From Gloeopeniophorella convolvens (lineage: Eukaryota; Basidiomycota; Agaricomycetes; Russulales), in the NCBI GenBank assembly GCA_022496205.1, contig WTXD01000031.1, positions 248,001-312,000 of the forward strand: 64,000 bases of DNA, in the 5' to 3' direction. Made by a program: the position numbers and the translations under genes. Below, one piece after another: positions 22,649 to 43,896 of the stretch. The notes under the pieces are model-generated. The model worked only from the letters and a program-made list of their open reading frames with translations. It was not told the DNA's origin and searched no databases. Position 1 is the first letter of the stretch. Each line of letters starts with the position of its first letter.

Positions 22649-23719
22649 CTAGCTGAGCCGCGCAACTGCCGCTTCGCGCCGCAAGACTACCATCTCGCGC
22701 CGTGCAATATTTCCCTCGCGCTGCGCAACCTTCGCCTCGCGCTGCCTGACCTCCTCTTCGCGCCGTACGACCTTTGCGCTGCGCTGCGCCAGTCCCTTCT
22801 CCATCCTGTTGAATTCTATCGAACGCTCACTCATGTGTGTGTGGCTAACAGCATCTCCTCCGCTACTTGGCTCGCGCTGATCCAACCGGATTAGCTGCAC
22901 GGTCCTCGGCGACGTGCGGCCCTCTTGCAGCACAGGACTATGGGTGGTCAGGGGCACTGGGCCAGCACGTGGCGCCACGTCGTCTGGAGGCGAGTCTCGC
23001 GGAGATGCAGCAGCCGGGGAATAGATTTGAAAGTGTGCGCGGCGCGCTGACGGCGCTGGCGTCGGAGTTCGTTTCATAGGGCTTCGTGTTTGTCGCCGTA
23101 ATGAGACATGGTCGGGGGCGTATGATGGTGATGGCGAGGCAGGATGATGAACTCGCACAGACGGCGCTCGGGAGCCTGCAACGGATTCCGTAGGGGGCGG
23201 AGGAATGAAAATCTCCTCGGACTCGACGGGGACGGGGCCCTGATTAGCGCCCATTGGGAGGTTGACCGCTATACTGGGCAGGTTGCGCCCAGATGGTGCC
23301 GACTCGGTCTGCATAAGCGCAGCCACCGGAATTGGAGAAGGTGCAGGGAGGACAGGCAGGGTGGGCGCGGGTGCAACGCGGGGCGAGGGCCGATATGAAG
23401 GAGCAGGAGCAGGAGGCGGTGTAGAACGTGGTTGTCGCAGTGCACAGATGGCTGATGTATTTGGGGAGACCGCGCGTTGAAGAATGTGTGGTGCAGATGA
23501 CACTGCCGGCACGGGTCTTCCCTGGCCATAATGCGAGCCAGCTGTCCACGACGATGGTCCCACCGATGCGAACCCCTGCGGCAAAGGCGGGTTCGCATGT
23601 TGCGCCGGTAGAACTTCTCGAAGAGTCGAAGTTGGAACATCGCGTTGCAATGCAGGATTCCGAATTGGGTACGGATAGGAACGATGCCATGATGCGCCAG
23701 AGGGTTGACTTCTATACAT
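22649..23719 (-). CDS. Pro-rich / coiled-coil array protein 1, tail missing
   Basis: First of five tandem paralogues. The ATG at 23719 gives MYRSQPSGAS and 356 aa; an upstream exon is possible because the frame is open further 5'. The protein is proline-, serine- and arginine-rich (many PAPSP-type runs) and probably disordered. It ends in heptad-like R/E repeats (REAKVAQREGNIARREM) predicting a short charged coiled coil. Unlike the other four copies it stops right after the coil and lacks the C-terminal YTVRTVxSYKER motif. Function unknown; the coil suggests self-association or pairing with the neighbouring copies. Confidence 0.6.
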   Translation of the reverse strand: MYRSQPSGASWHRSYPYPIRNPALQRDVPTSTLREVLPAQHANPPLPQGFASVGPSSWTAGSHYGQGRPVPAVSSAPHILQRAVSPNTSAICALRQPRSTPPPAPAPSYRPSPRVAPAPTLPVLPAPSPIPVAALMQTESAPSGRNLPSIAVNLPMGANQGPVPVESEEIFIPPPPTESVAGSRAPSVRVHHPASPSPSYAPDHVSLRRQTRSPMKRTPTPAPSARRAHFQIYSPAAASPRDSPPDDVAPRAGPVPLTTHSPVLQEGRTSPRTVQLIRLDQREPSSGGDAVSHTHMSERSIEFNRMEKGLAQRSAKVVRREEEVRQREAKVAQREGNIARREMVVLRREAAVARLS

Positions 23720-24392
23720 GGAGTCCGGATGAGGTAGTCTTCGATCTAATACAACTGAACCAGTCAGTCTGATTAGGGAAATGCATCTATCGTGATCGAA
23801 GGACGCACCGACGATCGGGCACCTGGGGAAGAGAGAGGTGGGAGGTGGGAGGTGACTGGCTACCACATGGGCTGCCTCGGTGTTCGTGTTATAAGATGGA
23901 CGGCGAGGTTACATGAGAACATCTGTAGTACTCGCAGCATGGTCTCCGAGGTAGAGGGGAGAACGGGAGGCGCACAGCGATGGCCATCATCCATGCTGAG
24001 CGAGGTTTCCTGCAGCAGTGGCAGCGCCTTGACCGAATGAAGCCCTGAAGGCCTGACGTCGTAGTCGCCAGCTTGAGGTGACCTGGACATGCAATCAAGT
24101 CCATTCAGCTCCGGCTAACAGTGTCGCATGCTATGTGCATGGGAGACCTGAGGCTGAGCGCTGAGGATCCGAACCATATGCGGTGCTGTAAGCGCCCCCG
24201 GACTACTGATTGTGGAGATTGTTATACTGCCCCCAAGGTAAATGTAGGTCTTTGAGTTCACGAAAGAGAGTAGTGGTGTGGCGGGGCGTCGTGCTGCCCG
24301 CGCATGGCGAAAATCGCTGCTGTACACGGGTTTGATGAGCGACCGGCAGCCTCCGTCCACGCCGGCGCCCAGCCGCAAGGCTGCCCGCACCG
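23720..24392. other. intergenic
   Basis: Spacer between array copies 1 and 2. It may contain the 5' leader or a short first exon of copy 1; I could not fix one. Confidence 0.35.
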
Positions 24393-25790
24393 CTATTTGG
24401 CTGCGTCGCCCTTCCGCGCTACACCTCTGTTGGTGCGCTCCTTGTACGAATTGACCGTCCTGACGCTATACCACGCCGACTCTGCACTGAACACCGAGTC
24501 CCGGGTCCGAGAGCTGAACGGGCTCGCAATCTCGCCCTCGCTGCTCGGCTCACTGTCTTGGCCCTTCACCCGTGTATGGGATTTAGTTGTTCCGGCGCCG
24601 CGTGCCTGCGCCTGCACTTGGGCTTGCGTCAATCCCTCCATCATCTCTTGCATCCATTCGGCCTTGCGATTTGCCTCCTGTAGCATACCCTCTGCCTCCT
24701 GACTGCGCTTTGCGACCTCCGCCTCGCGCCGCGCGAGCGCCTTCTCCCTTTTGCTGAGCTCGCGCTCGCGTTTCACAAGGTGCGCCTTCGCATCGTGGTC
24801 CTCACCATCGACAGGGGGACCATGTTGCGCACCTGCCCTGGGCTGTGATGTCCCCGACGACGTGTGAACAACCTGGGGTGCAGGGACATGGACAGATGCG
24901 GAAGGCGAAGGGTCGCGTCTGGCCGTCGCAGCCGAAAATTGCACCCTCTGAGGCAGCGTCGTGACAATTGGAGAAGGAACATGAGTATGGTCGGATAGGA
25001 TCGGTACTCGCGGCGGCGAGTGCGCTCGTTTGGGAGTCCTTTCAGGAGATCGCGATCGCGGCCATGGTGAGGGTGTTACATAACAATATTGAAAAGGTGG
25101 GCGTAGCTTGCTTGTGAAACGAGATCGCGACCGCCCACGAACGTGCTCTGGAGGCTGCAGCCTTCGCGGTGATGGAGACCGATGGCGCCCTTTACGAGAT
25201 GGGGACGTTGACGCCCTTCGTCGACGCACAGGCTCTTCATCCGGTGGTGATGGAGACCGCGATCTCTGCGCATGTTGGTGTGAAGAAGCATAGCGGTAGC
25301 CCGGGGAAGACGAGCGTCGTCGTGGGTTGCGGCCCGGGCGTGGGCGTGCCGGGCCGGATCGCGGGAGTGGCAGTGGCGGTAACAGAGGCGGCGAAGGGGT
25401 CCGTGGGCCGGGCCCTGGTGGACGTATTGGTGGCGAAATCGGCGGACGTGGGAGGTGAAGGTTTGAAATTTGGGGTGAGGAAGCTGGCGCCGACGCTACG
25501 GTTGAGAGCAGGTAGGGACGTGAGTCAGAGATGGGAGCTCGAGGGTTCAGGGATCGTGTTTTGGAAGACTCGAGTTCCTCCGGCTGTGAATGCAAGTGGT
25601 GGTCACCATGCTGCAGATTCTGCGCAGACGCCGAGGGTCCTATACCCACGGTATGTGGTTGTTGTAACGGCTCTGCTTGTGCTGATCTAGTTACCGGTTG
25701 AGGCGCTTTCGAACTTGAAGGTGCACGCTGCAAAGATGGGGCGAGTGCCGGACTCGAGCGACCCTGTGGCGCGTTCAAAGATTGATTCAT
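24393..25790 (-). CDS. Pro/Arg-Ser-rich coiled-coil array protein 2
   Basis: Single open frame of 465 aa from ATG 25790 (MNQSLNAPQG). The N-terminal ~250 residues are proline-rich. The middle is rich in RS/SP dipeptides (RRRRASTSPSRKGRHRSPSP), like splicing-factor RS domains. It is followed by a charged coil (ELSKREKALARREAEVAKRS) and the array-wide C-terminal motif WYSVRTVNSYKERTNRG. The RS dipeptides would fit a nuclear RNA-associated protein, but this is inference from composition only. No RNA-recognition domain is present. Confidence 0.68.
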   Translation of the reverse strand: MNQSLNAPQGRSSPALAPSLQRAPSSSKAPQPVTRSAQAEPLQQPHTVGIGPSASAQNLQHGDHHLHSQPEELESSKTRSLNPRAPISDSRPYLLSTVASAPASSPQISNLHLPRPPISPPIRPPGPGPRTPSPPLLPPLPLPRSGPARPRPGRNPRRRSSSPGYRYASSHQHAQRSRSPSPPDEEPVRRRRASTSPSRKGRHRSPSPRRLQPPEHVRGRSRSRFTSKLRPPFQYCYVTPSPWPRSRSPERTPKRAHSPPRVPILSDHTHVPSPIVTTLPQRVQFSAATARRDPSPSASVHVPAPQVVHTSSGTSQPRAGAQHGPPVDGEDHDAKAHLVKRERELSKREKALARREAEVAKRSQEAEGMLQEANRKAEWMQEMMEGLTQAQVQAQARGAGTTKSHTRVKGQDSEPSSEGEIASPFSSRTRDSVFSAESAWYSVRTVNSYKERTNRGVARKGDAAK

Positions 25791-26364
25791 TGGCTGGAGG
25801 ATCTTTCAAGTTATCTAGGGTAATGCACGGGAGTATCAATCAGCAGCAGGAGTGGTTTGGCAACATCGGAAAGCGTACCTTGGAGCCTTAACAGAGAGCC
25901 AAGGGGAGAGTCGATGACAATCTAGTCTAGGGTACCTCACGCTATAAACTGGGCTGCAAAGACGTACGACGCTGTGAGATAAGCCGCAAATAGCTCTCCT
26001 GAAAGATGGTGCTACCGGTGGCGGAGAATGAGGCCCAAGCAGGACATTCGGAAATGGTCTCCGCGATAAGCTGGCCCGAATCCGACTGCTCGTGGTCACA
26101 GGATGACTTGAGGCGATCCGGATTCTGTCGCACCGCAACGACCGAACCCTGGCGTTTGTGGGCACTCGGTGAGAATTCACACCCTCGGAGCGCTTCAGCG
26201 GGGGCTACGCTGATGCGTCGCGGGAGTCTCAGACGGGATTTGCATTACAGAGTATAGCTCAACAAGGCAGAAACCTGCTACAAACTGGACAAACAATCAA
26301 CATCCAAAGTCGAAAGAAAAAGTGGTGGGACAGCTTACGACTGATACTACTAAATGTCGCGCAA
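25791..26364. other. intergenic
   Basis: Spacer between array copies 2 and 3. No exon recognised. Confidence 0.4.
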
Positions 26365-27936
26365 TCATACTTCTACTACGGATTCTTCCATCACGATTTC
26401 CTTCTTCGGCGGACCCCTGTTAGTGCGCTCCTTGTACGACTTGACTGTCCTGACCGTGTACCACGTCGACCGTGTGGTAGCCATCGAGCCTCGAAGACCG
26501 GCGCCGGGGGTCCCGTCACCTGCACCCTGCTCGTCGTCTTCAACATCCGACTCGTCGCTGCCTTCTCCGCTCGCAAGCGCCTGCGGTACGTGCACACCTG
26601 CGTCGCGCGCCTCAGCCTGCGCCTCGGCGAGAGCCTGCATCATCTCGCGCGCCCATGCTGCCACGCGCGTGGCCTCCGCCATCAGGTCCTCAGCCTCCTG
26701 GCTGCGCTGCTCAACCGCCTCCTCGCGCTCCTCGACCTCTGCCTCACGTTCCCCGACCTCTGCCTCACGTTCCTCGACCTCTGCCTCGCGATGCGCCACC
26801 TCGAGCTCCTTCCTACTAAGCTCCAGCTCGCGCTCCTCGATGCTCTTCGTGCCTGTGCCTTCGGCATCGTCATTGGGACTGTGATGCGCCGTATGGACCG
26901 CCTGCGATGCCGTCGCCGCAGCCAACGGTAGCGGCTGCCGCTGCGGGGGAGGCGTGCTGGCATGCTCGGGCGACGAAGGCACGGGAGATCGCAGTGACGG
27001 CAGCGATGATGTGGACGAAGATTGTAGCGGTGAGACCAGCGGCGGTGGGGTGACTGGCAGCGCCGGGGTGCGATTCATCCATTCGTGTATGCGGCCAGGT
27101 GAGTGGAAGCGCCGCGATGGCGACAGCGAATCCCTACGGGTCGAGGGCGTACGCTCGTAGTCAGACTCGTGGAATGGGGATCGTCTTCGGTAAGGAGGGT
27201 GGGAGCGGTGCGTATGGCTAGATTCCCGGGATGGCGCTCGCCTTCGTGATGCAGACCGATTCCTAGCGTCTCTGTCCTGCACCGACATGGATGGCCTCCG
27301 CCGAGCTGCGCGGCGGGAAGGCTCCTCGACATACTGAGGGGAGCGTGAACGCGAGCGTCGCGACGGCGAGCGACCACGGGTGTAATGGCGCTCGAACGGG
27401 GACCGACTCCGCCGCGCAAAGCGATGCACGCGTACTTCAGAGTATGTTGGAGAGGGAGATCGCGAATACCGATGTTGCATACGCATGGCGCCTACCCTAG
27501 GGGACTCCCGGGAGCCCGAACGCTGCCGAGACCGATAAGGAGAGGTATGCATGCGCTCGATAGAGCTTGATGACCTATGGAAGATGGTACGCGGTCGGCT
27601 GGTGGAGGTTGCTGGCCTCACTGGCCGTGAATGAAGGACGGGAGATGGCAGCGCCCTCCTGGTGGAACGATACGGTGGGGGGCGGGGCATTTCAGGAAGC
27701 TTTGACTCTACAAGTTGCCAGCCGGAGTGATTGCCTTGGCTACGTTGTGGTCTCGATGGCCGCGCTGATGCTCCCACAGACGCAGGACCTTGTTTGGGGC
27801 GTAGGTCTGGTCGGCCTAGTGCGTCACTCAGTCGCTTGAGAATCGTACGTCCACGCGGGGGCGGAGGCGGAGGTGGGTGCACGCGCGAGCGTATGCGCCG
27901 GCCTGGGGGCGGCGGGGGTGGTGGTGGTGGAGCCAT
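26365..27936 (-). CDS. Pro/Arg-Ser-rich coiled-coil array protein 3
   Basis: 523 aa from ATG 27936, which starts the polyproline run MAPPPPPPPPPGRR. The order matches copy 2: polyproline N-terminus, an RS-rich domain (GRSPSRRSRSRSPQYVEE), a proline/serine linker, then a long charged coil made of repeated HREAEVEEREAEVGE units. An acidic stretch (SDESDVEDDEQG) precedes the C-terminal motif TWYTVRTVKSYKERTNRG. It is the longest and best preserved member of the array. The acidic patch and motif are shared with copy 4, showing these two are the closest pair. Confidence 0.7.
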   Translation of the reverse strand: MAPPPPPPPPPGRRIRSRVHPPPPPPPRGRTILKRLSDALGRPDLRPKQGPASVGASARPSRPQRSQGNHSGWQLVESKLPEMPRPPPYRSTRRALPSPVLHSRPVRPATSTSRPRTIFHRSSSSIERMHTSPYRSRQRSGSRESPRVGAMRMQHRYSRSPSPTYSEVRVHRFARRSRSPFERHYTRGRSPSRRSRSRSPQYVEEPSRRAARRRPSMSVQDRDARNRSASRRRAPSRESSHTHRSHPPYRRRSPFHESDYERTPSTRRDSLSPSRRFHSPGRIHEWMNRTPALPVTPPPLVSPLQSSSTSSLPSLRSPVPSSPEHASTPPPQRQPLPLAAATASQAVHTAHHSPNDDAEGTGTKSIEERELELSRKELEVAHREAEVEEREAEVGEREAEVEEREEAVEQRSQEAEDLMAEATRVAAWAREMMQALAEAQAEARDAGVHVPQALASGEGSDESDVEDDEQGAGDGTPGAGLRGSMATTRSTWYTVRTVKSYKERTNRGPPKKEIVMEESVVEV

Positions 27937-28879
27937 AACCGGGTTGACTGAAGGGAGTACAAGGCGCGACAAGCTATGCTTAGATATGGTGAGAGGGGCT
28001 ATGAAGCCGTAGAACGATCAACGTACCTCGAGCTGGCAGCCCTAGTCAGCCAGGACTGCAGGACTACTTACTTCGGGGAGGTCGCCAGACCCCGGATAGT
28101 TATTCGAGCCATCATGCATTCATGAGCAGGCCTATGGACTTCAATTCCTCGTGTAAGGCGATGCTGTGCGTACATGTGCACTGAGCGCGCAGCGAAAACA
28201 ATGCACACTGTCAACGTATGCCATGGAACCTGTCAGTGCAAACAGGTGCAAACGACTCACGAGGTCTAGGCCTTCGTGACGACGCGCATCGGCCGTGTCC
28301 GGACACGCGCGGCACGCGTCGGACTGCGCCGCCTGTCGCTGCATGATAGTCAGTGGTGTTGTGTTCCTTCCAAGTCAGCTCAATTGCACAATGTGCGACA
28401 GTGCCTTTTGCCGCGTCAAAAGGCACCCAGTGTGTATGCCTGCCGACTGAGTCTCATTCAATCGACGGACAACGAAGTCACAAGATACATAACACTCTAA
28501 TTCGTCCCAAAGCCAGGCCTAGTGTTGCGGGAACCCAAACAACGCATACAGGGCATGATGTGACGCACTGAATTATGCCTCAAGCCAACTCTCCGTCCTA
28601 CCACAAAGCATCTATCTGGTGGAGAAGGCTCACAGGACGCTCCCATAAGCTGTACGACGGAATGACCAGGTGACCAAACGCCAAAGCAGGCTGGCTTATT
28701 CAGACTGACTTGCGGCGGTCCTGTGGTACGGGAGCTTGAAGAGGCGAAGGTGAAACATTACGCCTGGCCGACATAATCAGGACTTGCAATACAGACGGCA
28801 AGACACCGACAAAAGACTGTAGTATCAATTGAACACCTGCAAGTACGTTAACAGGGAAGGCGGAGGGTCGAGATATGCC
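27937..28879. other. intergenic
   Basis: Promoter side of array copy 3 and spacer. No gene recognised before the relic that starts near 28,880. Confidence 0.4.
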
Positions 28880-29130
28880 GAAGGACGGCGTGAATATAGC
28901 TAGATCTAGGTCGCATTCACAGCGGCACCTGCTCTGAAGAGTGCGACCTTCGCGGTGGCTTTCGATAACGCCCATGATACGGGGGTCTCGACTTCTCGTA
29001 TGGTGGCAATGGAGACCACGATCGCCGCGCGCGCTGGTATGAAGAGGCATAGTGGTGGTTCGGGGATGGTGACCGTTGACGTAGGATAAGGCCCGGGGGT
29101 GGACGTCCGGCGACGACAGCGACAAAGGCG
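28880..29130 (-). pseudogene. relic of an array copy (RS-domain part)
   Basis: The DNA here is clearly similar to 25,090-25,345 inside array copy 2. On the minus strand one frame reads YASSYQRARRSWSPLPPYEK, matching YASSHQHAQRSRSPSPPDEE of copy 2, then runs into a stop after about 40 codons. The coil and C-terminal motif are absent. It looks like a decayed fragment of a duplicated copy. Confidence 0.55.
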
Positions 29131-29166
29131 GTGGCATATGAGCTACCATTAGATGGTGTTGCGCGA

Positions 29167-30219
29167 TCACGCTTCTGGAATGATATCCTTCGGCATGGTC
29201 TTCTTATTTGGCGGGCCCCTGTTAGTACGTTCCTTGTACGACTTGACCGTCCTGACGGTGTACCACATCGAGCGCATGGTGTCGGCTATCGAGCCTCGAA
29301 GTCCATCGCTGGGGGTCTCGTCATCCGCACTCTGCTCTCCGAGTTCGACATCCGGTTCGTCGCTGCCTTCCCCGTCCAAGACAAGGGGATGCAGCATGCG
29401 CGCACCTGCGTCGCGCGCCTGCGCCTGCGCCTCGGCAAGAGCTTGCAACATCCCGCACACCCAAGCTTCCCTGTGCATGGCGTCCGCCATCAGGTCCTCA
29501 GCCTCCTGTTTGCGCTGCTCGGCCGCCTCTTCGCGCTCCTTCACCTCGGCCTCGCGCTGCACAAGCTCGCGCTCTTTCCTGTTGAGTTCCAGCTCGCGCT
29601 CCCCGATGTTCCGTGGGCCCGTGCCTTTAGCATCACAGCTGACGCTGCGATACATCACACGGACCGCCCGCGGTGCCCTCGCCGCAGTAGGGGGTGGCGG
29701 CCGACGCCGCAGCGGAGGCGTCGTGTTGCGCTCCGGAAACGATGGCAGGGATGACGGTGGTGATGTAGATGGAGACAGAGATAGGGGTGGGGTGTGGTTC
29801 GCCCATTCGTGGATGCGGTCGGGCGAGCGCGAGCGCAGCGGCAGGGACAAAGGGGCATCATAGGCTGCGCGCGTTTGTTCGTACGCGGATTTTTGGGATG
29901 GGGGCCTTGTCCGGTAAAGAGAGCGAGAGTTCTCGATAGAGTGCGATGGCCGATGTAAGATGGTGCGTGGTGGGGTAGAGTGGCTGCCTTCGCTGTGTTG
30001 AAGTCCTCTTGGCCGCGCTGACACTCCTACAGAGGCTGCATCCTGTTTTGGGGGCGGGTGCGGTTGGCTGAGCAGGTCGACCAGTCGCTTGAAGTCAGAA
30101 CGGCTGCGCTCACGCAGCGCTAGCGGCGGAGGCAAAGACAGAAGCAGAGGTGGAGGCGGAGGGGGAGCAGGGCGCGGGCGCACTTGTGGGAGCGGCAGGA
30201 GTGGAGATGAAGACGCCAT
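29167..30219 (-). CDS. Pro-rich coiled-coil array protein 4
   Basis: 350 aa from ATG 30219 (MASSSPLLPLPQVRPR). The N-terminus is proline-rich, with a short basic middle (SRSPDRIHEWANHT) shared with copy 3. It has a charged coil (GERELELNRKERELVQREAE), an acidic patch and the C-terminal motif MWYTVRTVKSYKERTNRG. Compared with copy 3 most of the RS domain is missing. The frame is intact. Function unknown. Confidence 0.66.
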   Translation of the reverse strand: MASSSPLLPLPQVRPRPAPPPPPPLLLSLPPPLALRERSRSDFKRLVDLLSQPHPPPKQDAASVGVSARPRGLQHSEGSHSTPPRTILHRPSHSIENSRSLYRTRPPSQKSAYEQTRAAYDAPLSLPLRSRSPDRIHEWANHTPPLSLSPSTSPPSSLPSFPERNTTPPLRRRPPPPTAARAPRAVRVMYRSVSCDAKGTGPRNIGERELELNRKERELVQREAEVKEREEAAEQRKQEAEDLMADAMHREAWVCGMLQALAEAQAQARDAGARMLHPLVLDGEGSDEPDVELGEQSADDETPSDGLRGSIADTMRSMWYTVRTVKSYKERTNRGPPNKKTMPKDIIPEA

Positions 30220-31074
30220 GTTTATGCCGGTGGAAGTAGTACAGCGCACGCGAGGCTGATATACGTTCCACAATGCAACGTTTGAATATTGTGAGTGATG
30301 TTGCGAAGCCAGAGAGCGGTCGACGTACCTCGAGCAGGCATTTAACTGGGGCTCATTGAAGAACGTCACCAGGCCCGGGGTGACTTAGGCCATTTTAGTT
30401 GATCCATGAAGCGCGATCCCACTAGGAAGGGCGATGCTGTACATGTACAGCGTTAAGGTGTTGCAACGATGGCAATGCGAATGTTGTCGACTTCTTGATT
30501 CACGAAGGTCGCAATATTTGTCGAGCGCCAGTGAGACCGAAGTCGTCCGACTCCGACCCAACTCCGACCCGTGCGGTGGCGTCCGTGTCCGTGACAGCCG
30601 CGTGCGCCACCCACATGCCACGCCAGAGGTCGAGGACGGATACATAAGACTGCGTTCACTCGGGCTGGCATCGCATCATCGCAGCAGTGCTCTATTATGA
30701 AAACTCTGACACAGCAGAGTATGCGAGCCATCGTGCATCATGCGTCGAATCTCGAGCCCCGAGCCGCTTTTCAATCCACTCACACCGTTCAGTATGTACA
30801 GCTTGAATATGGCAATACCTGTACTCGCGCGTTAGAAAGGTCGCAGGACGCCCCAATAACCACCGCCCGACAGAATTCGCTGATTTAACACCGAAGCACG
30901 CCGATGGCCCCAGGGTGCCGGGCCTCCGGTGACAGGGACTGTCGTTCCAGTAGCCCAGCAGCTCTCACGATAGGTCACCCTGCGCCTCGCTCGGAGTAAA
31001 GCTGGGCGATGCCTGCCACCTGTGCAAGTGGTAAATATCTTAAGCTATGATCCATGACATTGGAAAAGCGCACA
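30220..31074. other. intergenic
   Basis: Spacer between array copies 4 and 5. No exon recognised. Confidence 0.4.
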
Positions 31075-32093
31075 TCATCGCAGCCGCGGGGCCATCACAT
31101 TGTCATCTTCATACACCCGCCTCAACCAGATGCGTTTGATGCGCTCCTTGTACGAATTGACTGTCCTGACGGTATAATGGGCTGAAATGTCAGAGGCCAC
31201 CGTGTCCCACGAGCGAGCGCTGAGCAAGCTCTCCGCGCTGCCCATCCCGCCGTGGTCTTCTGCCAGCCAGTCCCAATCCGGCCCATGCGTGTGAGCTCCT
31301 GGCCCCAATGCCTGTGACGGATCGCGCAGCACTTCACGGGCCCACTCGGCCATGCTCAGCGCTTCTTGCAACGTGCGCTCCGCCTCCTGGCTGCGCTCCG
31401 CGACTTCCGCTTCGCGCCGGGCGAGCTCCGCCTCGCGCTGCGCGAGCTCCTGTGCTGCTGTGCGGTGCTTGTCGTGATGCACTGCACTCCCTGGCCATGC
31501 GGCTTTCGACAACCCAAGGCTCCCAGGAGGCACCGCCAACGTGGGGAGCACTGGCGCGTCCGGCGGTGGTGAGACGATGATCATCGGGTGGGTGCGAGGG
31601 TCCTCGTCGAACAGTCCATGCAGACTCAAGGCTGCAGTTGCTGGCTGCGGGAAAATGTACAAGCGTGACGGCGCATATAGGACCCCATTATCATCGGGAG
31701 GAGATACATGCAGGACAGGCAACCCTCCGGGAGCCTCTGCAGCCACTGTGCGTGATTGGGAGTATGGGACCTCACTGCTCGGTTCCAGTTGGCGGACTGG
31801 CAGTCCCGCAGACCGGGCAGGCTCGGGTTCCAAGAAGAGCCCAGCTGATAGAGTTGGTGGAGGCGAGAGTAGATCCCCAGGAGCCACGGGACTGTAGTTG
31901 GTTCGACGCAGCTGCGCTTTACTTGGAGGAACTTGCAAAAAGGACAACGGCTGATCAGATGCTGGATTCGGAGGGCCCGGATCTGGGGCGGCAGGGAGCT
32001 GACGCTGGTCGGTGACCCGTGAATCTGACGCTGTAGGGTCCAGGAGCGTACCTTCAACGGGGGCTCGGTACTGACAAGTAAAGGCAACTCCAT
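31075..32093 (-). CDS. Pro-rich coiled-coil array protein 5
   Basis: Two exons, 32093-32052 (MELPLLVSTEPPLK) and 32004-31075, separated by a 47-nt GT-AG intron at phase 0; 323 aa. The body is proline-rich but has no RS domain. The coil is short (ELAQREAELARREAEVAERS). The C-terminus carries YTVRTVNSYKERIKRIW, a diverged form of the array motif followed by an extra basic/acidic tail. This is the only copy for which I could place an upstream exon, so the others may also have one. Confidence 0.65.
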
Positions 32094-32799
32094 TTGAGGA
32101 CTACCGATGGGGGGTGGAATGAATCTGATATATTGACGCTGGCAGCTGAGCCTGCGCGGCAGTGCGCCGCATTGCCATTGACACGCAGCGGTCACTTCAG
32201 TTCAAACTCGAGACGGGGCGGTGCAAACCGTGCAAGACGACGTCAGGCCTCAGGTGACCGGGGTCCTCTGGGCTGGGGTCCCTGGTCCTCGGTCCTCGGG
32301 CCTCACTGAACCGTGGGACCGCGCTTCTGTAGTTCTGCGTCATGCGGCCATGCAGGCCGACCGCGACGCGTTGAACTTCAATATCATCACCTTCGACTAC
32401 AAACTCCCGCTGGTATCTGCGAACGGGATTAATTTCAGATCACTCAAGCAGGCCTCCGGCTGGTTTGACCAGTTCAATCAGGGCGCCTATCCCTTGGTCT
32501 GTCCGCCCTTTCGCCATTCCTTCAGTCCATCCACGGCTCGAGGCCTGGAATGCACGCATATGTATTCACAAACAAAGCGTGCTAATCTTTGATTTGCACG
32601 CAAAGTTGAGCCACAGACACAGTGCGACAGACTAGCAAGCTGATGCAGCTGTTCAGCTGTCGCGGAGCCACAATCTTAATACGACTCCTCAGGCGCCCGA
32701 AGCACACTGGCTGGTGGGCTCTCAGATCAAAGATGGGCGGGGCTATGCAAGAGTGTACAGCTAGAACTCACAACTGCTCGAGAGGTCGGGCGAGATCAC

Positions 32800-37061: not shown

Positions 37062-37070
37062 GAGGCATCC
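37062..37070. repeat. target-site duplication, left (GAGGCATCC)
   Basis: Nine bases identical to 43888-43896 on the other side of the element, directly outside the inverted repeats. They match with no mismatch, which suggests a recent insertion. Confidence 0.85.
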
Positions 37071-37283
37071 TAGTCTCGTTCCCGCCTAGTCTCGTTCCCG
37101 CCGTTCACAGAGCCGGCTAGGAGGGTTGAAATTGTCGGTTGTTGAGTGTTGTCATTGGTAGATCGGATTTAGAATCTGAAATGGTGCCTGAAAAAACCCT
37201 CGCTAGCCGGCTCTGTGAACGTCTGGTGCACTTCGCATGGGAGACCCCCCATCGTGACTGATTGTAACGCCTGGCTGTTAAGC
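37071..37283. repeat. left terminal inverted repeat
   Basis: Starts with two direct copies of the 16-mer TAGTCTCGTTCCCGCC (37071-37086 and 37087-37102). A hairpin follows (37103-37221), then the conserved block GGGAGACCCCCCATCGTGAC (37239-37258) and ACGCCTGGCTGTTAAGC. Each block has an inverted counterpart at 43,776-43,887. Confidence 0.8.
37103..37221. repeat. subterminal hairpin in left transposon end
   Basis: Arms GTTCACAGAGCCGGCTAG (37103-37120) and CTAGCCGGCTCTGTGAAC (37203-37220) are exact reverse complements, extended by gagggtt/aaccctc nearby. The loop is about 80 nt. A hairpin in the same place exists at the right end, so it is probably a functional part of the terminus. Confidence 0.85.
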
Positions 37284-37411
37284 GCATGTCAAGCGACGGA
37301 CTTCACGTGGGCAGACGCGTCGACTTACGTGGTAGTAATAGCGTAAGTCTCTAGCTGACCAACTTGGTGCCAACGCATCAACCGACAAGTCACACTCCTG
37401 CGGGCAGGGCC

Positions 37412-40400
37412 ATGTCTGACCCTCCAACAGGTCCAGAAAATGGTGTTCAGAGTTCCATGGAACAGGACATTCGTTCTCTTACACAATCTGATGCACTACC
37501 TACAGCTCATGAAGCAGAGCGGGCACGGTCATATGCCCTTCTCAATGATGCACGACGGAGGGCCGGGGGAAGGTACAAGTCAGCAGATGCAAGGAAGATC
37601 ATGGTGGATGAATGCACACGTAGATCATGCGGCAGGGTTGTCCCGAAGGAGTGGCAATTGGATGTAGCAGAATGCATCATCCTCGGTGTCGACTGTGAAG
37701 TAATTGCTCCGACTGGTGCAGGGAAGACCATACCATTCATTCTGCCTGTGTTCTATCAACCAAAGAAGGAGATTGTCATTATCTCGCCTCTAATTGCCCT
37801 TCAGAAAGATCAGGTATGTTAGAACCTATAGTTCATCCATAAGCTAACAGTTGCATAGGAGCGTCGGTTTCGTGAACTCGGAATACATGCAAAAGCAATA
37901 AACCGAGATACCTATAGCCGATCTGTCAAGAGGGTGCGTCCGCTGCAGAGATTGAATGTTTTTTAAGTACTCACGATACAACCAGAATCTCAAGCGTGGC
38001 CGGTATCCAGTGATACTGACTTCACCTGAGATGTGTCTGCTGCACCCAGAGTTCCGTGCCGCTTTAGAAGCACCGTCAAAGCGTCGAAGGATTGCTGCCT
38101 TTCTGATAGACGAAGCCCATTGCATCACACAGTGGGGCGAAGAGTTTCGACATGCGTATAGTGAGCTGGGGACACTTCGAGCTTTTGTGTCAAATCGCGT
38201 ACCATTCCTCGTCACCTCTGCGACTCTCACACCTGCAGACTTGGTTGAGGTTCGCAACTCGGTGCATATGCAGCGTCACTCATCTTTCCACCTCAACCTC
38301 GGAAATGATCGGCCTAATATCACCTGGAACGTTCACCGAATGAAGGCTGCCAAGTCTGACGTCGAATCACTCGCATTCCTCTTACCTGAAACAGAGAGTC
38401 TCGAATCTGACGCAAAGCTCATCCGCAGTGTCATCTTCTTTGATGATATCTCATTGTCGATGGAGGTGCTTCGGTGGTTCCGCGAACACCTTCCTGAACG
38501 GCTTCGAAAGCGCGTGGCTTGCTATAATTCAATGCGCGGTGACGAAAGTAAGATTGATGTCATTGAAGAATTCAATAATGGGAACATAGACATACTATTT
38601 GCGAGCGAAGCAGCGGGCATGGTGAGTGCATGTTGCAAGTATGAGATACTCTATTAATGCCGTGTTTTGCATTGCAGGGGTGCGATCTGGCCGATGTCGA
38701 TGTCGTCGTGCAGTTTTTGGTGCCAAAATCACTCTCGATCTGGTTCCAGCGTGCTGGCCGTGCCGGGAGGCGGAGAGGTAGCCAAGCTAGTGCATATCTA
38801 TTGGTTCAGCCGACGATCTTCCAAGAAGTCGGAAAGGGGACGCGCCTGGCTGGTGATGATATTAAGTACAAGAAAGACGTCGAGGTTGGCCTCCGTGATT
38901 GGATTGAGACAACTGGGTGCCGTCGCCTTGTTGCTGATGAATATTTCAACAACCCAGGTCATGAGCGTGAGTTGTCTTGTTCGCGTTGTGCGCTTTGGGT
39001 ATGAGCTAATCAGCGGTAATACGCTATGTAGCGTCTGTTGGCGTGTGTTGTGACAATTGCGCGCGCGCGATGGCAGCCGCGCAAGGTTCGCAAGACGAAT
39101 CTCAGCGCGAGCGGCCGACAACTCCCATCCATTCACGCAACCCCTCCATTATCACACATCCCACTCCTAGCAAAGCTCTAAATTCTTCAGGAAAACGGCC
39201 AATGCTCAACCCTGACGCGGATCGCCCCCCAACGTTCCTGTCAGGCGACAGGGGGACTTTCTTCGCGCCGCGGAGGCTGCTCTGAAGACATGGAGACGCA
39301 GTACGTGGCTCGAACATTACTCGTTGCGCCCCTGGGGTGTCGAGGGCCTGATGTCCGATGCTGTGCTGACCGGGTTCGCGACATACGCGCGCTGGTCGGA
39401 GGTGGATCACGTCGCCAGCTCAGATCAGTGCCCTGCCGCGGCGAAGTGGTGGGCGTTGCACATCCATGGCAAGGATGTTCTGGACGTCACACAAAAAGCA
39501 CACAAGAGGATAGCGGACGAGAACGAGCTCGCGAAAAAACAACGGAACGACGCTCGTAAACAAGCGACACGCGAACGGCAAGAGGAGAAGAAAAGGATTA
39601 AGACAGAGGCGCGCGAGCAAACAAAGATCGAAAAGGGGAAGGCACGGGAAGAGAAGGCATCCACGGACGTTGAACGGAAGGCGAGGGAGCGCGAGGAGAA
39701 ACAAAGGGCCAAGGAGGCGGAAAAGAAGCAGAAGGCGGAGGAGGCGGAGATGGCACGCCTTATGGAGGAGGCGGCCATACATATGGCGGTTCGTTTTTGT
39801 TTCTCTCCATTTTCTGGGCTTAGTATTCCATGCGCTAACGGTCTGTACACCAGGCATTGCGGACAGAGCCCAGGCGTATCGCGCCGCGGCCGCGTCCCGC
39901 ATACCGTGGCGCGCAGGCTGCCCTTCCGCCCGCCGCGCCCACTCAATCCGATCCTGCACCACCAGCGGCACCATCGCAGGCGTTGTATCCACTGCCAGAG
40001 CCAGTCGCGCCGTGGCCGCAGCCGGATCCAGCGTTCCACGGGGCACACCATCATCACCACCCCCCACCACACGCTTCCTCCGAAACGCCCGTAGCCCACC
40101 CAGTCGATTACCCGCAACCGCTACCCACCTACTCACCAGCCCCCGCGCACTATGGCCCACTTGTCTCACTCGCAGTGCCGAGTCCCGCGGTGGATATCGC
40201 ACTCCGTACAGACCTGCCGGCCGGTCCATCTACACCCGTTCTGCAGGACAACAGCTGGGACTGGCCCTCCGAAGCCCCATATCCGAGCGCCCTTTTTGAG
40301 GGGCACGTCAGGCAGCGCGCTTACGTCGACTACCGTGCACCTCCCCCGCCGCCGGACGACTTTGCGTTGGTAACGCACAACCACGTCTCCAACGGCCCGA

Positions 40401-40833
40401 TCCGTGCGTCGCGATTTTTTCGTCTTCCCGATTAACTTTGTTAACCTCATTATGTGTAGGCGATCCAGCATTCCTTACGCCGCCATATACCCCGCAGCAC
40501 TCGTCGCGGAATGCACACCATCTCCCTCCCGTTTCCGCGCCCCAGCAGCGTGCGCCGTTCGGAACTCACCCATACACGCCGTCGAACACGCCTCAGTACA
40601 CACCGCATAATACGCCTCAATATACCCCCCATAATACGCCCCAAGGAACACCTTCTTGGACTCCGCACCACACGCCGCAAAGGGCTGTGATGGCACTGTA
40701 CGCACCATCTCGCCAGATGCATCCGCCCGCGCCGGTCCGGTATGTCGCGCCGGCCCGGGTGACCATCCCGGTCCCCTACCACCAGTCGCAACCGCCGCCA
40801 CCGCCGCAACAAGGATGGCATGGCGGATTTTAG
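37412..40833 (+). CDS. RecQ-like DEAH DNA helicase of the transposon
   Basis: ATP-dependent 3'-5' DNA helicase type. Exons: 37412-37813, 37859-37933, 37986-38621, 38678-38966, 39032-39788, 39854-40403 and 40460-40833 (~1,027 codons). The Q-motif-like WQLD is followed by motif I APTGAGKT (99-106), Ia IISPLIALQKDQ, II DEAHCITQW (201-), III SATLT, VI WFQRAGRAGRR, and a Cys cluster (CCDNC) in the RecQ zinc region. The C-terminus has a KTWRRSTWLEHYS segment, a long K/E/R-rich coil and a proline/tyrosine-rich tail with PQYTPHNT repeats. A one-base frameshift lies near 39,250 in a five-G run (cagggggac): the frame jumps from FLSGDRG to DFLRAAEAALK with no room for an intron. It is convergent with the DUF6589 gene. 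Confidence 0.83.
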
Positions 40834-40866
40834 TAAGATATAAATACAATCGTTTCAATCCACAAT

Positions 40867-43648
40867 CTATTCTGCCCCTGCTGAGATGCTTCCCGCGTTG
40901 TCTTCCTGCGTCCCGCTACCGGACTCACTCGCTGAATCTGCAGATCGCTTCTCTAGTCTGGATTGAGAGGTATTGCGCTTGAACGACCGCCCCTCCCACC
41001 ACCGATCGAACACCCCATCAGGCTGTGTAACTGCATTCTGGCCAATCGTGATGACATCTTTTGCCTGGTCACCTTCCCGCGTGATGGTGCGGCCGTCATG
41101 GCGCGAATACCATTTTTCGTCAACGATGACATCCATCCATTTCTTCACGTCCCTGTCTTTTCCTGGTACTGTATGTGCTGATCCTCGAGACCTAATAAGT
41201 TGGTGCTGCGCCTTCATATGGGCCGCAACTGCACGGAAGACCGGAACGCCAGGTGACATTCTCGAGAGCTGCTCGAGCGTCGCCCCCGGGCCGCTAGACC
41301 GGTACGTAACCTTTTGAAGTATCAGCGCGAGGTTTCATCCTCACAAGGCATAGATCACCTTGATATCCTTTATGTTTTGTTCTTGAGCCTGGTCAATTGG
41401 CAGGAAACCATCCCGATTTCCCATACGGTTCAGCAACCAGCAGTGCTTTCGGACAAAATTTCTGATTCGTGGAGGGTAAGTGTGACGTATCATGCGAGAA
41501 CAACTTAAAACTGACTTCACCTCCGGTGTCCACTCGCGCTTCAAGCCTTGCAGCAGCTCCAGGACCTCAATTGTGTACTTGCTGTGCTTGCTTCCAGCGA
41601 AGCGAAACAGCAATGTGGGTAGGAGGTCTTCCATGCGCCCAACATCTCCCATTTTGATTGCCTCCCGCAGATCAAAATATGCCAGTGTATCTGCCAGGAA
41701 CATGATAGCATGGTATTGAACTTCGTCCGAGATGTCACCGGCTTCGTTCCTCAGTTGGACAAGCGCAGTTCGTGAGGCATATCTCTTGTAGATCTTCTCC
41801 GCGAGGGCGATTAGCTCATGAGGGGTTTTACTCAGAAGTTCCGATAGGTCACCGTTTTTGAGAGACGCAGCTTGGATCCAGCATGCAAGAACGTGGGCCT
41901 CGCCAATGTGCCAAAGCGCCTCATCAAGATGATGCCAAAACGGGCCTTTTGTTTGCGTCTTCTGTAATCCTTTCCGCTTGAGTAAGTCGAACGCACGTCG
42001 CAGGCCAAACCCTGCTGATGTTCCTTCATATTGCCCCAGGAGCGAGCTCGCAAATGCAAAGAGGCAGTGAAGCCACCCAAACACTGCAAGGACCCAGTCA
42101 AGACGCTCAAACCCATTGACATCGTCGTGCCGGTACTTCGTTAGGCCGCGAAGGCGTTCGACTGTGAGTTGGTCACCTATAATCGCAACGAGGAACTCAG
42201 CCGCAAGTCGCTTCCGGTCCTCGTTGTCGTCATCAAGGTGTAGTATCTGAAGCAGATATTTGAGGACCTGTTGATTCCCCTCATAACTCGCTTCCTCGAT
42301 GTCTGCAGTGTATAGCATGAACTGCTCTATGGTGTTCTCCAGACCCGCCGGCAGCTGGTTTGTGGGAGGAGGTGGTGCGAGGATGGGGTTATCACGGTGA
42401 GGGTAAGTCTTGAATGCTGGAGATTCAAGTAGAAACCGCAAGATTCTATATCTTGCCTGTGCTGCTATACGAGAATCTGTGGCGTCCGCTTCGCTACCGT
42501 TCATCAAGGCCCCGATGGAGAATGGTTCCTTTGCGCCTTCAATACGCGTAGTTCGAAACTCGCTGCCGAACGTCTCTGAAAGCCGGACAGAACGCGGAAA
42601 CACCCAGAGTGTTGCAGCGCATGCGCTGTAGAAATGGTGCTGGTTGTCTGATCGCATCGAAAAGACGCGTTTTGGGATATTGACGTTATCATAGGAGAGT
42701 ACGAATGCCCGCTTCCTGACCGCGACGACGGCTCCTTCCATCTGCTTCTCCGAGATGCTCCCGAATGCATTGTTGGTCCATCTTATACTCATCGCGAGGC
42801 CCGTAGAATGAACAGCATCGAAAGCACGTGAAGAGAGGCCACACGACTTTAGGTAGATTGCCCAGAGTGCCGCGAGGCGATTGGACTTGTGCGAACGTGT
42901 GTAGGAAAGCATGCTGATAATATTCATCACAACCTACAGGTAATCTAAGTCATGCCGCTACACGCAAGATCTGGTACCACGGACTCACGTTATTGGGTCT
43001 TTTAGATGTGTTTCGCTTTTCTTGCGACTTGCTCCATGCTGTGCCTAACAACAGATCCCACAGGAGAGGTGCCGACTCCTGAAGTTCCGCGGATAGAGTC
43101 GGGAAGCTCAGAGATGTGAGGGTCTCTAGGGAAAGTGGATCACCAGGCGAGGTGAGGACTTTGGCGACTGCACGCATCTCATCCTGGATGCTCTCCTTGA
43201 CGCAGTCTGCAGCGAACCCCTCTATGATCGCTCGGCTCACATCAGCCTTTCCACCAGGGGGCTTCCACCAGCGCTGTAGCAGATCCAGGAACTCGCCGCT
43301 TGAGAGAAATCGGGTTCGCGCGCCTCGTATTTGAGGGTCACTTGTGCACTGCTTGTCCCCCCAGCAGACCGCATTCAAGAACATTCCGAGATCGAGGCCC
43401 TGTGTATTCATAAAGTCCAGTACTGCCTTGGCCCTTGTGCATACATCGGCACCCAAGTTGCTTGTGGGATACCGTGCGTGTTGCCATGGCCGGCGATGAT
43501 TGTGAGGCTCCTCCTGGTCCGATGCATCACTGCTTGTAGCTGTCAAGGACCCTGCATCTTCATCAAGCACAAAGTCGGAATCATCCTCTGATTCGTCATC
43601 GAAAATATCACGAAAGAATTGAGGGAGGTCTGCGGCTATGTTGTCCAT
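40867..43648 (-). CDS. DUF6589 protein, proposed transposase
   Basis: Three exons, 43648-42989, 42933-41359 and 41310-40867, with 55- and 48-nt introns; 892 aa. An acidic N-terminus (DDESEDDSDFVLDEDAG) precedes the DUF6589 region: VVMNIISMLSYTRSHKSN, VLSYDNVNIPKRVF, FLVAIIGDQLTVERLRGL, LDWVLAVFGWLHCLFAFASS, HIGEAHVLACW. The conserved end is DIKVTYRSSGPGATLEQLSR, KDRDVKKWMDV, AKDVITIGQNAV and WWEGRSFKRN. The Asp of YDN, the Asp of GDQLT and a later Glu (EAHVLACW) are in the order expected of a DDE/RNase-H-fold transposase; that is inference. It ends 33 nt from the helicase stop. It is the only other gene in the element, which makes it the transposase candidate. Confidence 0.85.
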
Positions 43649-43775
43649 TTGTGATGTCTTTCGATAGCACGATGCTTGCGCGCACACAGAAAGCAGCCAT
43701 CATGATTATCAAGCGACATCAACTGATAACATCTCACAATTGTGCTGACAATCATATAATACTTTTGACACTACT

Positions 43776-43887
43776 GCTTATGTCAGGCGTGATGGTTGTC
43801 ACGACGGGGGGTCTCCCTAGCGAAATACCCCAGACGTTGCAGGAGCCAGCCGAGCTGGATCTCTGCAACGATCTGGAACCGAGACTA
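43776..43887. repeat. right terminal inverted repeat
   Basis: Read on the minus strand it begins TAGTCTCGGTTCC, then the hairpin, CGTCTGGGG, TTTCGCTAGGGAGACCCCCC and GTCGTGAC, then ACGCCTGACATAAGC. It is shorter than the left end because the left end has a doubled 16-mer and a longer hairpin loop. Confidence 0.8.
43836..43869. repeat. subterminal hairpin in right transposon end
   Basis: Arms gttgcaggagccagc (43836-43850) and gctggatctctgcaac (43854-43869) pair almost fully around a 3-nt loop. It occupies the same relative position as the left hairpin. Confidence 0.75.
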
Positions 43888-43896
43888 GAGGCATCC
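43888..43896. repeat. target-site duplication, right (GAGGCATCC)
   Basis: Exact copy of 37062-37070, directly outside the right inverted repeat (CGAGACTA then GAGGCATCC). Confidence 0.85.

Follow-up and report, generated by a model that had tools for sequence, protein, structure and literature searches.

A recently active two-gene DNA transposon of Gloeopeniophorella convolvens, most likely of the AcademH lineage, with hairpins near its ends

Main finding

The window analysed here, C235:248001-312000, is a stretch of 64,000 nucleotides from the 36.68-Mb assembly (404 contigs) of Gloeopeniophorella convolvens, and it carries an element with just two genes in convergent orientation, a RecQ-like helicase on the plus strand and a DUF6589 protein on the minus strand. 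This element belongs to a genuine, recently active transposon family. Past mobility, the exact ends, the 9-bp target-site duplication, an empty site and the pairing of the two genes can all be observed directly in the assembly. We consider it highly probable that the element is an AcademH-type DNA transposon, which most likely moves by cut and paste, with DUF6589 as its DDE transposase and the RecQ-like helicase as a second conserved factor. As far as we searched, two points are new, namely, that DUF6589 is most likely a transposase and that a hairpin is found at each of eight ends in four families.

Ends, copies and target-site duplications

Direct reading of the window from the left gives GAGGCATCC, the tip TAGTCTCG, about 6.8 kb of element, CGAGACTA and a second GAGGCATCC, so that both tips are TAGTCTCG in inverted orientation relative to each other. 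Apart from these two flanking copies GAGGCATCC does not occur in the window when both strands are counted. The left and right ends also share a 53-nt inverted match that is 79% complementary, and the inverted tips, inverted blocks and flanking 9-bp duplication described in a first-pass annotation of this DNA are borne out by both kinds of reading. That annotation also took the element to be a complete transposon, which holds, and to begin directly at the left duplication, which does not. The 16-bp left tip TAGTCTCGTTCCCGCC is doubled in tandem (37071-37086 and 37087-37102) and all seven other closely related left ends, namely, those on C168 and C29 and those of five non-autonomous copies, start at the second tip copy; therefore, the canonical element is 37087-43887 and 37071-37086 is an extra copy of the tip. 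The doubling at 37071-37102 reaches outside the canonical end yet lies within the target duplication, and perhaps it arose by slippage after insertion or was inherited from the donor copy.

Whole-genome searches with the element ends and body found two further copies of the window family, one of them interrupted and split over contigs. The copy on C374 has 5,961 bp in common with the window copy, among which there are 2 substitutions; it is broken at about element base 840, and the absent left part (bases 1-842) was found on C29. An unrelated insertion with CTAACCC-like repeats interrupts this copy (L034) from about base 2230. The C168 copy differs from the window copy by 26 substitutions in 6,801 bp, all of them transitions. 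In the C168 copy 22 of the 26 are changes from C/G to T/A, and 16 of these 22 are at CpG, compared to 27% of C/G bases being in CpG, a sequence pattern that resembles methylation decay or a process like repeat-induced point mutation.

Five non-autonomous copies of about 2 kb (C104, C257, C278, C35 and C74) have both ends, with about 172 bp shared on the left and 101 bp on the right; in pairwise comparison there are 7-22 substitutions and at most 22 gapped columns. A sixth candidate, C365, has the right end only. No convincing cargo gene was found in the C278 copy, the sole one translated, the longest stop-to-stop frame being 136 codons. This copy (C278:417-2412), to which four similar ones are known, has degenerate CCCTAA/TTAGGG-like repeats in opposite orientation towards its two ends. 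Three diverged families in the genome have the same tips and the same gene pair.

Importantly, the 9-bp duplications are perfect in 13/13 copies that have both ends on one contig (C235, C168, C104, C257, C278, C35, C74, C323, two on C290, C161, C163 and C57), and all 13 differ in sequence; for C235 the duplication counted flanks the doubled tip. Two split copies (C29/C374 and C55/C88) also have matching duplications, though the duplication was used in pairing them. Five further ends (C46, C68, C365, C342 and C251) are unpaired, and at C342 a search of the left side as fetched did not turn up the expected 9-mer. The evidence for an empty site was drawn from a nested insertion on C290, as no uninterrupted version of the site in the window was found elsewhere in the host assembly, where only its two flanks match. 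There the left end of a family-3 element is interrupted by a family-2 element, which has a copy of TGGAGGAGG on either side. With the flanks joined and one TGGAGGAGG retained, the sequence aligns over 551 bases, with no gap, to two family-3 elements that are uninterrupted, those at C163 (548/551 identical) and C161 (544/551). The nested case shows a precise insertion with a 9-bp duplication and provides the direct empty site. Thirteen perfect duplications in copies with the same ends confirm the complete transposon that had been proposed from the window alone, and the proposal of a recent insertion is likewise supported.

Pairing of the two genes

The 34 profile-search matches to DUF6589 in the genome were merged into 21 loci, and at 16 of them a convergent helicase match lies within about 5 kb. 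Even loci with no more than 21-29% identity to the query are paired in this way (C2, C332 and, on C342, the second locus). At two loci (C68 and C88) the contig stops on the side where the helicase is expected, and at C4, C105 and C10, the last being a fragment at a contig start, no helicase was found in the 7-10 kb fetched. There are also helicase matches that have no DUF6589 match nearby, at C342:106576-107217 (the nearest more than 20 kb off), C349:191504, C395:25 and C344:1782; these are possible solo or decayed copies.

Among public proteins, 28 of the 85 DUF6589 matches listed (27 of 84 contigs) are on a contig of identical size to one bearing a listed helicase. Contig sharing was called from equal contig size in bp, and the species names, compared by eye, agree in 27/27. 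This count is a lower bound because only the best 120 of 5,745 helicases were compared. As a control, contig sizes were shifted by 1-50, which gave a mean of 0.04 matches and a maximum of 1. Below 15 kb the contig was shared in 2 of 18 cases, below 150 kb in 7 of 31 and below 500 kb in 11 of 49; that both genes are on one large contig is weak evidence of pairing. Close pairs are those of Dentipellis fragilis (genes g10494 and g10496 on a 6,277-bp contig), Amylostereum chailletii (a 9,273-bp contig) and Paxillus involutus (consecutive locus tags PAXINDRAFT_12087 and 12088). The two convergent genes of the first-pass description are confirmed by the Pfam matches and strands, and the pair recurs at other loci in this genome and on contigs common to both genes in other agaricomycetes. 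The named species among the 85 DUF6589 matches listed are all agaricomycetes, and no animal relative was reached, each search having scored only about 8,000 candidates. The agaricomycete matches listed for both proteins are mostly annotated as hypothetical protein or P-loop hydrolase, and recognition of the pair as one transposon would account for two gene families together. It also calls for caution, as some genes named 'RecQ' or 'Bloom syndrome' in mushroom genomes may belong to transposons.

The DUF6589 protein and the helicase

The AlphaFold models of DUF6589 show a likeness to DDE transposases with a helical insertion, such as those of the P element, Hermes and RAG1, with no strong Foldseek E-value; absence from the fold-match lists was never counted as evidence. 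Together with three conserved acidic positions (Table 1) the models suggest that DUF6589 is most likely the transposase of the element, its DDE identity being a prediction from modelled structure and conservation. DUF6589 had no credible sequence relative among PDB structures (best E-values 0.82 and 0.32), no named transposase profile was matched by the 38 DUF6589 proteins scanned (Pfam-A, E <= 0.1), and no mention of DUF6589 was found in the literature searched.

The spliced helicase protein matches PF00270 (DEAD, E 9.4e-22) and PF00271 (Helicase_C, E 2.7e-14), and the closest solved chains to its central exon are WRN, RECQ5, BLM and RecQ. By eye, the Walker, DEAH and RecQ-type aromatic-loop motifs are kept, and the match to the RecQ zinc domain is under the cut-off (17.1 against 25 bits). 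The position of the C-terminus is uncertain. The frame as read ends at 39285, an end that we regard as tentative; a lysine/glutamate-rich frame that overlaps the end of the helicase is open from 39216 to 40094, with more open frames to 40833, and in this region the window copy is 1 base shorter than both other copies. Because of this shortfall and the overlapping open frame, the helicase frame appears to be broken in the window copy.

Table 1. Coordinates of the features of the element in the window
Feature	Position	Strand	Remarks
Target-site duplication GAGGCATCC, left copy	37062..37070	.	Direct reading
Extra tandem copy of the left tip TAGTCTCGTTCCCGCC	37071..37086	+	Absent from seven other closely related left ends
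Canonical left end: TAGTCTCG tip, spacer, hairpin, blocks GTCTGG, TTCGC, GGGAGACCCCCC, TCGTGAC	37087..37258	+	
Left subterminal hairpin, 5' arm	37102..37120	+	19 bp, 0 mismatches
Left subterminal hairpin, 3' arm	37203..37221	+	
RecQ-like SF2 helicase gene, 4 short introns inferred	37412..39285	+	PF00270 and PF00271
DUF6589 gene, predicted DDE transposase, 874 aa with three inferred introns removed	40867..43648	-	PF20231, E 3.7e-103
Candidate catalytic Glu codon (E518 of exon 41341-42933)	41380..41382	-	E in 33/33 ungapped rows; end of fold match offset in part
Candidate catalytic Asp 2 codon (D254 of exon 41341-42933)	42172..42174	-	D in 36/36 ungapped rows
Candidate catalytic Asp 1 codon (D82 of exon 41341-42933)	42688..42690	-	D in 36/37 ungapped rows
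Right end: TAGTCTCGG tip, spacer, hairpin, blocks in the same order	43798..43887	-	
Right subterminal hairpin, 3' arm	43835..43842	-	
Right subterminal hairpin, 5' arm of the end read inward	43863..43870	-	8 bp
Target-site duplication GAGGCATCC, right copy	43888..43896	.	Direct reading

Subterminal hairpins

In four families 8/8 ends, left and right, have a stem in the interval from the tip to the GTCTGG block. The stems are 8 to 38 bp long with 0-2 mismatches, and DNA folding gives the same ones. When the bases of the tip-to-block stretch were shuffled, seven of the eight stems were reached in 0/2000 shuffles and the eighth, at the right end of the window family, in 4/2000. When five left ends (the four families plus the non-autonomous copies) are compared over their first 15 pairs, every one of the 75 cells is paired, 74 as Watson-Crick pairs and one as T-G; a decayed C342 copy, with one T-G in its right stem, was left out of this count. 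No description of such hairpins was found in the literature searched, in which AcademH is represented by excerpts of citing papers.

It is quite possible that the hairpins are a functionless by-product of the growth of long inverted repeats, and that the tips and the GTCTGG-TTCG blocks suffice for transposition. Changes on both sides of the pair are seen at 11 of the 15 left-stem positions, and 8 of the 11 depend on the family-3 left stem alone (positions 2, 13 and 15 do not). The arms of that stem seem to have been replaced whole and not pair by pair. In the right stems a both-sided change is found at just 1 of the 8 positions compared, and the four families are of common ancestry and not independent. 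What speaks against a by-product is that a stem is kept at the same place in all eight ends and is reached so rarely by shuffling. A bolder idea, which we hold to be unlikely, is that the RecQ-like helicase of the element has these hairpins as its substrate and would extrude or resolve the hairpin before DUF6589 cuts, the ends of AcademH-type elements being recognised partly by DNA shape. If this is the case, then the element would be a DDE transposon with ends defined by conserved secondary structure and not by sequence alone. With recent copies, short non-autonomous ones and hairpins that recur, a ready system is at hand for testing the role of a helicase in DDE transposition.

Proposed mechanism and classification

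In the mechanism that we propose, the DUF6589 transposase would pair both ends, cut at TAGTCTCG and join the ends to the target at positions staggered by 9 bp; repair by the host would convert this stagger into the 9-bp duplication. The RecQ-like helicase would probably open or resolve the hairpin-forming subterminal DNA, or aid repair after excision. Excision by cut and paste, this division of labour, the part given to the hairpins and membership in AcademH are what we infer from the features of the element.

AcademH, a lineage of the Academ superfamily known here through citing papers, was reportedly described by Kojima in 2020 (Mob DNA 11:15). According to excerpts of the citing papers, AcademH duplications are 9 or 10 bp and those of AcademX 3 or 4 bp, the difference being tied to helicase versus nuclease (PMC10045372), and AcademH is a transposon of low copy number, present in Basidiomycota, Ascomycota and Mucoromycota, whose domains include DEAD and Helicase_C (PMC10799480). 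Others, as excerpted, merely cite the AcademH paper or name Academ (PMC8290104, PMC12210899 and PMC9970103), and 'Academ-2' is listed in a boletalean mushroom (PMC12411881). The window element is like AcademH in having a helicase, here of superfamily 2 by its Pfam matches, a 9-bp duplication in every one of the 13 copies, and a host in Basidiomycota, G. convolvens being a russulalean agaricomycete; a DDD/E transposase is seen at the level of predicted structure and the conserved D/D/E. The comparison is with the descriptions in citing papers and not with sequence, and by these features, rather than by descent of the transposase, the family is most likely AcademH.

The first-pass annotation knew of no element with this gene pair and suggested a new superfamily. 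The former has to be corrected, as AcademH, a helicase-bearing lineage of animals and fungi by the excerpted accounts, was published in 2020, and the latter was set aside because AcademH already covers a helicase with a 9-10-bp duplication in fungi. Three points speak for a new superfamily, namely, that the Pfam scan of 38 DUF6589 proteins yielded no named transposase, that the likeness is one of descriptions and not of directly compared sequences, and that the excerpted accounts of AcademH make no mention of subterminal hairpins. If the element did belong to a new cut-and-paste superfamily apart from Academ, then it would only happen to have a helicase and 9-bp duplications as well, which we regard as improbable, the helicase, duplication length and host group all fitting AcademH as the citing papers describe it. 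Mutator elements (MULEs) have target duplications of about 9 bp and Pfam includes Mutator profiles; the aberrant Mutator-like element also suggested fits in duplication length, but it is hardly credible with a Mutator profile matched by 0/38 DUF6589 proteins (Pfam-A, E <= 0.1; distant kinship is possible).

Other known groups were compared as well. AcademX, of the same superfamily as AcademH, has a nuclease, which is of the XPG type, where the window element has a helicase, and the 3- or 4-bp duplication of the excerpted account differs from the 9 bp of 13/13 copies. hAT (Hermes), P element and RAG1/Transib are the best structural matches of the DUF6589 models, with which they share an RNase-H-like DDE core that carries a large helical insertion, and no solved structure gave a credible sequence match to the DUF6589 profile. 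Their target duplications are 8 bp (hAT and P element) and 5 bp (RAG1/Transib), hAT and P element being rejected on the 9 bp found here, and none of the three is known to have a helicase partner. The Kyakuja-Dileera-Zisupton (KDZ) elements are large fungal DNA transposons with 8-bp, not 9-bp, duplications, and the KDZ profile that Pfam includes is not among the matches of the 38 DUF6589 proteins. Helitrons, which have neither target duplications nor terminal inverted repeats, are ruled out by the presence of both. Kolobok elements target TTAA, as against 13 different 9-bp duplications here. KolobokH is, like the window element, a DNA transposon with a helicase, according to an excerpt (PMC10799480).

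Elsewhere in the window

Five long and seemingly related open frames of 341-550 codons form a tandem cluster on the minus strand at 22649-32100. They have a proline/serine/arginine-rich front and a coiled coil of 21-bp repeats, and four of them have a common tail resembling YTVRTVNSYKERTNRG.
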